This document shows, piece after piece, positions 125 to 12,393 of a stretch of DNA of 22,549 nucleotides (positions are counted from its first letter, which is position 1; each line of letters begins with the position of its first letter). The stretch covers positions 1 through 22,549 of IMG/VR virus record IMGVR_UViG_3300025030_000434, one strand, 5' to 3'. A model generated the notes under the pieces. The model was not told the origin of the DNA. It worked only from the letters and a program-made list of their open reading frames with translations, and made no database searches. Position numbers and translations under genes: made by a program. This stretch comes from a virus.

Positions 125-173
125 GGGGGAGGATATGAATAATTGAGGGGGGGTGGGGGGAAACTTTGTGGGG
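125..173 (+). other. G-rich tract, possible G-quadruplex
   Basis: Four runs of G are seen on the plus strand: five at 125-129, seven at 147-153, six at 155-160 and four at 170-173. Four runs of three or more could fold into a G-quadruplex, although the loops of 17 and 9 bases are long. No other stretch in the window looks like this. Folding and function are inferred only. Confidence 0.4.
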
Positions 174-410
174 CCAGTAAAGTGCGAGAGGCACCTTGCT
201 ATAATTTTTATAATTTTTTAATTAACACGTATACCAGTTGGGGGATATCTAGAAACGCACAGAATCAGTTCTTTGCTCTAAGAACGTCACAAAGGCTCTC
301 AGTTGAGTTTGTTTAATTGGGGGTATGTCTGCGTATACCTAGACCAGTATAAATTGATTGTAGATAGGTTCCTGTTGATCCTAGAGGTATATAGACTTGA
401 CACTGTGCTC

Positions 411-441: not shown

Positions 442-463
442 GCCCTCAGCTTTTTATGAGGGC
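442..463 (+). repeat. Inverted repeat / hairpin, 7-bp GC-rich stem
   Basis: The arms GCCCTCA (442-448) and TGAGGGC (457-463) pair perfectly around an 8-base loop. The sequence after it begins TATAAT and is AT-rich but lacks a T-run. With the hairpin at 411-435 it forms a tandem pair immediately before the AT-rich block. Confidence 0.6.
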
Positions 464-492: not shown

Positions 493-522
493 TAAACATA
501 GTTCCTCAAAGAACTATGTTTA
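493..522 (+). repeat. Hairpin, 12-bp perfect stem
   Basis: Arms TAAACATAGTTC (493-504) and GAACTATGTTTA (511-522) pair without mismatch around the 6-base loop CTCAAA. The centre contains AAAGAAC (508-514), the same heptamer found in the loops of the two hairpins downstream. Confidence 0.7.
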
Positions 523-536
523 TATAAAAGATATAT

Positions 537-580
537 AGTTCTTATCCTATTATTAAAGAACAAATAATAGTCTAAGAACT
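537..580 (+). repeat. Composite hairpin H1 with AAAGAACA loop
   Basis: The outer stem AGTTCTTA/TAAGAACT (537-544 with 573-580) and the inner stem CTATTATT/AATAATAG (547-554 with 563-570) are both perfect 8-bp stems. They are separated by a symmetrical TC/TC internal loop (545-546, 571-572). The terminal loop is AAAGAACA (555-562). It has the same plan, loop and mismatch as the hairpin at 582-643. Confidence 0.7.
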
Positions 581-581
581 A

Positions 582-643
582 ATAATACTAATATAAATCC
601 AATAATATAAAGAACAATATTATTGTCTTTATATAAGTATTAT
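582..643 (+). repeat. Composite hairpin H2 with AAAGAACA loop
   Basis: From outside in: an 8-bp stem (582-589 with 636-643), an A/A mismatch, a 7-bp stem ATATAAA/TTTATAT (591-597 with 628-634), a TC/TC internal loop (598-599, 626-627), a 9-bp stem CAATAATAT/ATATTATTG (600-608 with 617-625), and the loop AAAGAACA (609-616). Loop and internal mismatch are identical to those of the hairpin at 537-580, while several stem pairs are swapped. Confidence 0.7.
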
Positions 644-754: not shown

Positions 755-784
755 CTTACATGTCAAGCTTAAAAATGATATAAT
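755..784 (+). promoter_or_regulatory. Probable sigma-70-type promoter for the late operon
   Basis: A perfect TATAAT (779-784) is preceded at 18 bases by CTTACA (755-760), which matches four of six bases of the -35 consensus. Transcription would start near 791, about 38 bases before the first gene. The surrounding AT-richness raises the chance of a random match, but the position just before a long co-directional operon supports it. Confidence 0.5.
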
Positions 785-2027: not shown

Positions 2028-2301
2028 TCGAGAATTGGAGTGGGAACACAAACATAAAAAGTCCCGCGTTAAAGATCGCGCTCAGCGAAATGCTGCTAGA
2101 ACTGCTGTGAAAAAGAAGCTAGGAGCGGCAGCGATCAAAGGAAAAGATGTGGGCCACAAGAAAGCAGTCAGCAAGGGTGGCAAGAACGGGTTGTCTAACC
2201 TGTTTGTTCAAAATGCTGGAGAGAATAGATCCTTCAGTCGAACCGCCAAGGGGGCGATGAAGAGTGAAACCAGTAAGCGAGAACGTAGCAAAAAGGCCTG
2301 A
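1993..2301 (+). CDS. Small basic HNH-like protein upstream of TerL
   Basis: About 102 residues, very rich in Lys and Arg. The second half reads like the core of an HNH domain: Asp-Val-Gly-His-Lys-Lys-Ala, then Ser-Lys-Gly-Gly-Lys-Asn, then Leu-Ser-Asn-Leu, ending in Glu-Asn-Arg-Ser-Phe. There are no cysteines, so a zinc-stabilised form is excluded. ATG 1993 is chosen over ATG 1987 because AAGGA (1982-1986) directly abuts the earlier codon but is 6 bases from the later one. The 5' end overlaps the endonuclease VII gene and the 3' end overlaps the TerL start by 38 bases, implying translational coupling. Given its place between TerS and TerL, a nuclease partner for packaging is plausible. Function is inferred. 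Confidence 0.6.
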   Translation: MPYQKNGVRQYDRELEWEHKHKKSRVKDRAQRNAARTAVKKKLGAAAIKGKDVGHKKAVSKGGKNGLSNLFVQNAGENRSFSRTAKGAMKSETSKRERSKKA

Positions 2302-3832
2302 AAAGGTCGTTTGGCCTAAATTAACTGCTGAAATTGTCGAGGGTTTTGCTTCTAGTTGCCTAGTTCAATTCTTCGATGATGCCAGTCAATTTGCAAGTTT
2401 CCATCGTGAGTGGTGGGAATTATGTTGTTCAGATGATAAGTTCGTTGCTGTCTGTGCTCCTCGTGGGCATAGTAAATCCACTACTATCACAATTGTATAT
2501 ACTCTAGCAGCAATGCTCTTTCGCAACCGTCGGTATGCGATTATTGTTGCAGATACAGAAACACAAGCATCTCTATTCTTAGGTCAGATCAAGCAAATCT
2601 TGTATGACTCACAGCAAATTCAAACGCTTTTTGGCCTTGCGGTGAATGATAAGGGAGTGGTTTTTGAAAAGGATTCTGAAACAGATATCATTGTCAAATT
2701 TGCTGATGGTGAGAAGTTCCGAATTGTAGCAAAGGGTGCTGAACAAAAACTACGTGGTATGTTGTGGTCAGGTCAACGACCGGATCTCATTCTCATTGAT
2801 GATTTGATGAATGAAGAACTGGTCGCCAATAAGGATCGTCGAGATAAATTACGCCGTTGGGTGTATGGCTCGTTGATTCCATGTCGAAGTGAGAAGGGGA
2901 TTATTCGATTCGTTGGAACACCGATGAATTTGGATGATCCTCTAGAAGCTTTGATGCCCAGAGAAAATGCTAAAGACACTGTTGTAGAAGATCTGAAGAT
3001 CTGGTCTAAGAAAAAGAAGGGGATGTGGCGTGCTGTTAAGTATAGAGCACACAACCAAGACTATTCTAGACTACTTTGGCCTGAACGCAAAAGCAAACAG
3101 TTCTTTGAAGAACTACGACAAGAGTTCACTGAACAAGGTATTCCTGAAGTTTATGCTTGTGAGTATCTATGTAATCCAATTGATGATTCCATTAGATATT
3201 TCCGCAAAGGTGACTTCCTCACTATGACGGAAGAGGATCACAAGAAGAACTTAACTTACTATATCACTGCCGACTTAGCTATTTCCGAAAAGGAACGTGC
3301 TGACTACACGGCTATGGTGGTAGGTGGAATGGATTCTAATGGTCAGTTACATATCATTCACGTTGTCCGTGAGCGTCTTGCTGGAGATGAAATCGTAGCT
3401 GTGCTTCTATCTCTGCAAAAGATTTACAACCCTCTTGCAGTTGGTATTGAAGATACACAGATTTCTAAGGCTATTGGCCCATATCTCAATAGAGCAATGG
3501 CCGAGTCTAATACCTACATGAATGTGTTGATGTTGAAGCCGCATAGGCAAGACAAGATTCAACGAGCTAGATCCATCCAAGCGCGAATGCGCGCAGGCTA
3601 TGTTAAATTTGACAAACAAGCCGATTGGTGGACAGTGTTCGAGGATGAATGTATGTCTTTCCCAAGAGCTAAACACGACGACGTGGTAGATGCTCTATCC
3701 TACCAAGGTATCCTAATTGATCTGATGACAGAAGGCATGACATCAGACGAACTTAAGGATGAAGAATATAACGATGACCGCGAAGCATCTGATTGGTCCA
3801 ATGAAGGACGATGCACGGAGACTGGCTACTAA
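2264..3832 (+). CDS. terL: Terminase large subunit (TerL)
   Basis: The 522-residue packaging motor has an N-terminal ATPase and a C-terminal RNase H-like nuclease. The Walker A-type loop is Ala-Pro-Arg-Gly-His-Ser-Lys-Ser (65-72). The Walker B strand is Leu-Ile-Leu-Ile-Asp-Asp (175-180), and a Gly-Thr-Pro coupling motif lies at 218-220. Nuclease acidic residues are seen at D337 (Ala-Asp-Leu-Ala), E396/D397 and in His-Asp-Asp-Val-Val-Asp (471-476). The gene starts at a GTG inside the previous gene, with a purine-rich AAGGGGG (2248-2254) 9 bases upstream, so it is probably translated by coupling. Length and motif spacing are normal for the family. The protein docks on the portal encoded next. 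Confidence 0.93.
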   Translation: MKPVSENVAKRPEKVVWPKLTAEIVEGFASSCLVQFFDDASQFASFHREWWELCCSDDKFVAVCAPRGHSKSTTITIVYTLAAMLFRNRRYAIIVADTETQASLFLGQIKQILYDSQQIQTLFGLAVNDKGVVFEKDSETDIIVKFADGEKFRIVAKGAEQKLRGMLWSGQRPDLILIDDLMNEELVANKDRRDKLRRWVYGSLIPCRSEKGIIRFVGTPMNLDDPLEALMPRENAKDTVVEDLKIWSKKKKGMWRAVKYRAHNQDYSRLLWPERKSKQFFEELRQEFTEQGIPEVYACEYLCNPIDDSIRYFRKGDFLTMTEEDHKKNLTYYITADLAISEKERADYTAMVVGGMDSNGQLHIIHVVRERLAGDEIVAVLLSLQKIYNPLAVGIEDTQISKAIGPYLNRAMAESNTYMNVLMLKPHRQDKIQRARSIQARMRAGYVKFDKQADWWTVFEDECMSFPRAKHDDVVDALSYQGILIDLMTEGMTSDELKDEEYNDDREASDWSNEGRCTETGY

Positions 3833-11899: not shown

Positions 11900-11938
11900 A
11901 TGAAAAAGAATTACTTCATCTCAGGCGAGTGCTCGTAA
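11900..11938 (+). pseudogene. Leftover 5' end of the zinc-ribbon gene
   Basis: A 12-codon frame, ATG to TAA, encodes Met-Lys-Lys-Asn-Tyr-Phe-Ile-Ser-Gly-Glu-Cys-Ser. This nearly matches the start of the zinc-ribbon protein at 12386, which begins Met-Gly-Lys-Asn-Tyr-Tyr-Ile-Ser-Gly-Glu. The two copies flank the endonuclease VII gene. The simplest reading is that the fragment is the gene's original start, separated from its body when the endonuclease gene arrived. Confidence 0.6.
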
Positions 11939-11945
11939 ACTCGCC
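11924..11945 (+). repeat. Hairpin upstream of the endonuclease VII gene
   Basis: GGCGAGT (11924-11930) and ACTCGCC (11939-11945) pair perfectly around an 8-base loop. The left arm lies within the leftover Gly-Glu-Cys codons of the split gene. No T-run follows. It ends 20 bases before the endonuclease ribosome binding site (from 11966) and may mark the left insertion boundary or influence expression. Confidence 0.5.
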
Positions 11946-11976
11946 TCGTCACTACGTTTCTCGAAGAAAGGGTTTT

Positions 11977-12393
11977 ATGGAAATATATGAAAAGAAATGT
12001 TCTAGATGTAAAGAAGTAAAACCTCTTTCTGGGTTTTCAAAAGATAAACAACACTGGTCTGGTCATAAATCAGCATGTAAGGTTTGTGCTAGTTTAGATT
12101 TTGCAGAGTGGAAATCTAAGAACTTAGAGAAAAGTAGAAGAGACGATAGAAAAAGACACTACATTAGAACATATGATCTTGATCCAGAATTAGCAGAACA
12201 ACTTGTACAAAATCGCGTTGGTGAGTGTAGTATTTGCGGTTCTATTCTACCCTTAGTAGTAGATCACTGTCATACAACTGGTAAGGTTAGAGGTTTAATT
12301 TGTTCTGCTTGTAATAGGGTTCTTGGGTACAGTAAAGATAACATTAAAACATTAGAAAATGCTATCTTATATTTAAGGACTTTTTATGGGTAA
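11977..12393 (+). CDS. Endonuclease VII-family nuclease with N-terminal zinc finger
   Basis: A 138-residue protein. An N-terminal zinc-finger-like part has C8-x2-C11 and C34-x2-C37, then a basic helical linker (about 45-63). The endonuclease VII domain follows: C84-x2-C87, Asp-His-Cys-His at 96-99 (D96/H97 catalytic-type), C109-x2-C112 and N113. ATG 11977 is chosen because GAAAGG (11966-11972... 4 bases away) is a good ribosome binding site; an in-frame GTG at 11929 inside the hairpin is less likely. The gene is AT-rich relative to its neighbours and overlaps the zinc-ribbon gene by 8 bases. It is flanked by two versions of that gene's start, as expected for an inserted mobile nuclease gene. 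Homing activity is inferred. Confidence 0.88.
   Translation: MEIYEKKCSRCKEVKPLSGFSKDKQHWSGHKSACKVCASLDFAEWKSKNLEKSRRDDRKRHYIRTYDLDPELAEQLVQNRVGECSICGSILPLVVDHCHTTGKVRGLICSACNRVLGYSKDNIKTLENAILYLRTFYG

Follow-up and report, generated by a model that had tools for sequence, protein, structure and literature searches.

The two hairpins at positions 536 to 641 of the window, a 22.5-kb viral contig fragment with a head and packaging module (22,549 nucleotides), appear to belong to the minus strand, opposite to the strand on which they were first read, and look like the start of a structured RNA. The possibility that we tentatively put first is that they open a structured leader RNA at the 5′ end of the early-arm transcript, which would act in cis on the transcription complex in the manner of HK022 put RNA.

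No convincing gene was found in bases 1 to 828 of the window. The genes that follow encode an HNH endonuclease (829-1098), a TerS-like protein (1120-1695), an endonuclease VII-like protein (1695-2027), and TerL (2264-3832), with portal and head genes beyond. By TerL, the closest relatives with names are Alcaligenes phage vB_Af_QDWS535 (QDWS535) and a Manatee Spring phage (uncultured), at only 48 to 49% identity. In both, the genes to the left of the region (replication and nucleotide metabolism) all or nearly all point leftward, while the late genes run rightward, which places the hairpins, H1 and H2, in a divergent control region. In QDWS535 the leftward arm that the element heads is 28 kb long and carries replication and nucleotide genes. 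Three HNH/endonuclease VII-like genes (829-1098, 1695-2027, and 11929-12393) are scattered amid the packaging and tail genes of the window, and some relatives, e.g., L022, lack the first two at these places. Between the control region and TerS, contig L006 has a tRNA-like sequence with a CCA end (~843-940), in which ARAGORN finds no tRNA.

H1 (536-581, minus strand) consists of a 9-bp outer stem, a tandem GA/GA, an 8-bp inner stem, and the loop TGTTCTTT, while H2 (584-641, minus strand) has an outer stem with a conserved U.U, a tandem GA/GA, a 9-bp inner stem, and again the loop TGTTCTTT. The original prediction had described an identical loop (AAAGAACA on the plus strand) and a TC/TC mismatch beside the inner stem in both hairpins, with pairs 2, 5, and 8 of the inner stem changed in a compensatory way and the H2 stem one pair longer, and all of these features were found as described. 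Its outer stems, said to be perfect, are so in H1 but not in H2, where one conserved A.A mismatch on the plus strand (U.U on the minus strand) leaves 7 + 6 bp. Dinucleotide-preserving shuffles of 464-800 produced two hairpins with stems of at least 8 bp and an identical octaloop in 0 of 20,000 cases, and at least two compound 7+7-bp hairpins with a 2×2 internal loop in 3 of 20,000. Folding of 536-641 gives a z-score of about −8 whichever strand is used. Because a covariance model made from H2 copies alone recovers H1 of the window (E = 5e-5; it also finds H1 of L019), H1 and H2 look like paralogues. A further minus-strand hairpin, H0 (493..522; 12 to 13 bp), has no GA/GA and was seen in none of the relatives inspected.

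The minus-strand form of the TC/TC mismatch is 5′-GA-3′ opposite 5′-GA-3′ (or GA/GAA), i.e., a tandem G.A motif, which stabilizes both RNA and DNA stems. A systematic search of 15 leaders returned 18 such GA hairpins on the minus strand and none on the plus strand (shuffle mean, 0.03), a result at odds with the plus-strand reading first proposed; over 294 kb of the same phages there are almost no others. The minus strand also gives the more stable fold in all 10 leaders compared, with an energy difference that is partly due to base composition, since the folding z-scores are similar on both strands, and permissive stems favor G.U over A.C pairs by 6 to 1, which as a strand test is suggestive only. 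Both observations speak for a leader RNA.

The relatives examined were contigs retrieved via TerL or TerS that extend into the control region. H1 and H2 occur at the same place upstream of the terminase genes, with covarying stems, in six lineages: the window, L019/L020, L021 (=L002), L022 (=L003), L024 (=L005), and L079, the last five at 70 to 87% TerL identity. A seventh lineage, L029/L030, carries a version that is longer and more diverged and shows these same internal loops when folded. (L079 was binned in a Bacteroidetes metagenome-assembled genome, while the relatives' promoters and the one cultured host point to Proteobacteria, so that this may be a binning error.) H2 was modeled, while H1 was compared by hand because MAFFT misaligns it. 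In the alignment of six H2 sequences, 99% of cells are paired, and two-sided changes affect 10 of 23 pairs with no one-sided change, a level of covariation that 0 of 500 shuffles reached; the GA/GA is invariant although the flanking stems change. The idea of selection on structure is thus borne out by relatives that keep the paired pattern at the same position with other stem bases, and the combination of a covarying H2 with a fixed GA/GA supports the leader-RNA reading. The identical octaloop, in contrast, is special to the lineage of the window and was dropped as a hallmark. On the minus strand, H2 loops read TGTTCTTT (window), TGTCTTTT (L019), or GTCTTTT, and H1 loops read TGTTCTTT (window), GGTTCTTT (L019), GGTTTAT, or GGTTTTA; within each of L021, L022, L024, and L079 the two loops differ.

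The original prediction stopped at two hairpins, and a third with the tandem G.A motif, H3, lies at 407-439 of the minus strand: GC-[GA]-AGTTGGGT(ACAATCCCA)ACCCAACT-[GA]-GC. Under a strict rule 10 of 23 loci have it on the minus strand and none on the plus strand (0.01 expected), and it reaches L006, L025, L032, L090, L091, and QDWS535 (loop GCGA); looser forms were recognized by eye in L024, L029, L061, L079, L089, and L092. Its stem sequence is changed in most relatives with complementarity kept. H3 is GC-rich and more widely conserved than H1/H2, and the fact that distant relatives, QDWS535 among them, have it with this GA motif is a further argument for a leader RNA. Another GC-rich hairpin often immediately precedes it; in the window this is GCCCTC..GAGGGC (442..463, minus strand), which adjoins H3 and whose stem is not the same in several relatives. 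Judged by their sequences, H2, H1, and H3 are modules of one kind, a stem of variable sequence with a tandem G.A interruption.

A sigma-70-like promoter, P(−), is predicted at 658-686, directed leftward on the minus strand (TTGACA-N17-TAAACT with TG before the −10; 10 of 12 positions match). H2 begins ~17 nt past its −10 element, and H1 follows 2 nt after H2. P(−) is found at the same place in most relatives, with a 12/12 match in four (L021, L062/QDWS535, L089, and L090), and a clear P(−) is absent from L079 and L061. Its position just before the array in most members supports the leader-RNA reading, which is weakened by the two members without an obvious P(−) and by some weaker promoter-like sites closer to the early genes in L021 and QDWS535. 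The transcript probably starts in the P(−) region. On the plus strand, a rightward promoter-like site of the terminase operon is located at 755..784 (CTTACA-N18-TATAAT in the window; 12/12 in L024 and L090). Between the two promoters, in the region 672-738, are TGTCTT(T)-type repeats (AAAGACA on the minus strand) at 672-678, 695-700, and 732-738, with a variant at 713-720; one overlaps the P(−) spacer, and together they are a possible operator. About three phage-specific repeats likewise lie between the divergent promoters of L019, L021, L022, and L091 (AAAGACA type; AAAGAAGATTTA in L091).

From the observed anatomy, covariation, strand-specific GA motif, promoter sequence, and position, we infer the following course of transcription, action in cis, and antitermination. 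Host sigma-70 polymerase would start at P(−) and head leftward to the early gene arm, transcribing in turn H2, H1, an AU-rich stretch, the GC hairpin, and H3, and the RNA would fold at once into its G.A-type hairpins. These modules could then act cotranscriptionally in cis, offering a recognition surface for RNA polymerase or for a phage or host factor, and the most likely effect would be a complex that resists pausing and termination along the long early arm. Gene order suggests that P(−) is used early, and the 28-kb arm of QDWS535, a phage with no annotated RNA polymerase, is consistent with such a role.

Against the leader-RNA reading stands the fact that the H1/H2 fold is not universal. 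A covariance search (R1) did not find H2 in L032, L062, L061, L006, L025, or L030, and the AU-rich array of L026, L032, and L062 folds no better than shuffles. Pattern scans of viral contigs (AAAAGACA, ATAAACC, and AAAGAACA hairpins) returned known relatives and unrelated sequence and nothing else, and a scan for the CACCTT..TTTTTATA box added no further lineage. AT-richness (array GC content, 2 to 24%) and a C-tract are more widely shared than this fold. The tract, TTTCCCCCCACCCCCC at 148..163 of the minus strand (a G-tract on the plus strand), is matched with 0 to 4 mismatches in 15 of 18 leaders, distant ones included; as plus-strand G6TG6AAA (148-163) it is kept across the phage group even at ~40% TerS identity. 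Two more boxes are conserved on the minus strand. One, at 192..208, is AAAATTATAGCAAGGTG, with 0 to 3 mismatches in the window, L019, L021, L006, L062, and L032 (shuffle P ≤ 0.005); its plus-strand form, CACCTTGCTATAATTTT (192-208), beside the G6TG6AAA tract, is common to several members. The other, at 351..364, has the family consensus CCTAGAATCAATTA, exact in L024 and L026 and with 1 mismatch in L079 and L061; the window has 3 mismatches, which is not significant there alone.

It is because of the wider sharing of AT-richness and the C-tract, and in view of a fitting set of replication genes, that a transcription-primed replication origin ranks second, after put-like action, as a reading that we consider doubtful but worth serious attention. 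RNA from P(−) would open the AT-rich array and provide a primer or an R-loop, the hairpins and GA motifs would shape or anchor that RNA, and the C/G-tract 300 to 500 nt downstream would mark where DNA synthesis takes over, a scheme with some likeness to ColE1 RNA II or T7/T4-type origins. A noncoding region of 0.5 to 1 kb with several conserved boxes between divergent arms suits an origin, as does QDWS535, with its PolA-family polymerase, DnaB-like helicase, and primase and no annotated initiator protein. The RNA, however, would bear the C-rich side of the tract, the reverse of stable R-loops, and the recurrence of the GA motif in three hairpins is not accounted for by an origin alone.

An intrinsic terminator was considered for H1, H2, and H3 and rejected, as they have no U-run and are not listed in a terminator scan of either strand; the only listed hairpin is H0, a weak one on the minus strand. 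The minus strand of the L021 leader has no terminator-like site, in support of a leader that is read through, and none is found just past H1/H2 in L021 or L024. These two relatives, and the window with only its weak H0, make it unlikely that the region encodes a stand-alone small RNA, or a 5′ stabilizing or RNase-processing leader, that leaves transcription unaffected. The compact fold adjoining a promoter would fit such an RNA, and in L089 and L090 terminator-like sites do follow soon after P(−). Lying between P(−) and H3, those sites also make a simple antiterminator at H3 awkward in these two distant phages.

The pair changes in H2 are A-U/U-A flips (one to C-G) with no G-U steps, which is unusual for RNA and weakens the leader-RNA reading. 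Such flips, in arms that are near-perfectly Watson-Crick on both strands, would suit an element acting as DNA, i.e., a cruciform or single-stranded hairpin bound by a phage protein at an operator, an origin, or a packaging site, the promoter being a mere neighbor, and the adjoining terminase genes and nearby TGTCTTT-like repeats agree with it. We nevertheless regard this as improbable, because the plus arm of a cruciform would have an unfavorable gap at TC/TC, the GA hairpins are always on the strand read from P(−), and H3, short and GC-rich, would make a poor cruciform. Neutral maintenance of functionless palindromes by template switching during replication, a process that needs no selection to yield perfect compensation and to which AT-rich inverted repeats lend themselves, is already disfavored and very improbable, as it should also have erased the GA/GA and U.U kept amid changing stems in six lineages and leaves H3 and the shared position unexplained.

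No known RNA family or tRNA was matched: Rfam 15 gave no hit at gathering thresholds for the window and 8 relatives, and up to E = 10 only chance-level matches, in keeping with the earlier remark that no named element is known to have such a plan. There was no Rfam match to the hammerhead or any other known ribozyme, and the arms flanking the GA/GA pair directly with each other. A literature search of partial coverage found no description of the element. A lambda-type boxA (CGCTCTTTAACA-like) next to a hairpin was likewise rejected, with 17 of 18 leaders, the window included, no better than shuffles; the exception is L092 (2 mismatches; P = 0.045), where boxA-like CGCTCTTTAAAC (2325-2336) lies within a long H3-like loop.

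To our knowledge, RNA-only modifiers of RNA polymerase are few, and the well-studied phage case is put of HK022, an RNA that suppresses termination and binds the β′ zinc-binding domain. It is conceivable, though a still more cautious proposal than put-like action itself, that repeated tandem-G.A hairpins with freely evolving stems represent a new leader RNA family of an undescribed phage clade, whose task for the whole early arm would be to reprogram host RNA polymerase in cis or to prime replication. If so, such a covarying, promoter-linked family leading into a 28-kb early arm would be a second, unrelated design beside put, or it would reveal the way in which PolA/DnaB phages that have no annotated initiator begin replication. 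The cultured relative vB_Af_QDWS535 makes the H3 module and the promoter open to direct testing.

Among known systems, the ColE1 RNA II primer resembles the predicted leader as a structured transcript that crosses AT-rich DNA ahead of a G/C homopolymer tract, and differs in that the tract polarity is opposite here. Lambda-type nut (boxA/boxB) shares a leader RNA hairpin near an early promoter, whereas boxA-like sequence is at most weak in these phages (L092). HK022 putL consists of two stem-loops right after an early promoter, through which polymerase comes to ignore terminators, and put features include a stem I triplex and a C26-G29 loop (PMC9378689). The likeness extends to tandem stem-loops that have internal noncanonical parts and come first in an early sigma-70 transcript (a predicted one here), in a phage without its own polymerase (PMC9378689); H2/H1 are two tandem stem-loops close to a promoter whose early use is suggested by gene order. 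Unlike put, of ~70 nt, the AU-rich H2 + H1 measure 106 nt, share the tandem G.A, and are accompanied by a third hairpin. The comparison with put drew on its published description. We file the element as a candidate structured phage leader RNA and not as a member of put.
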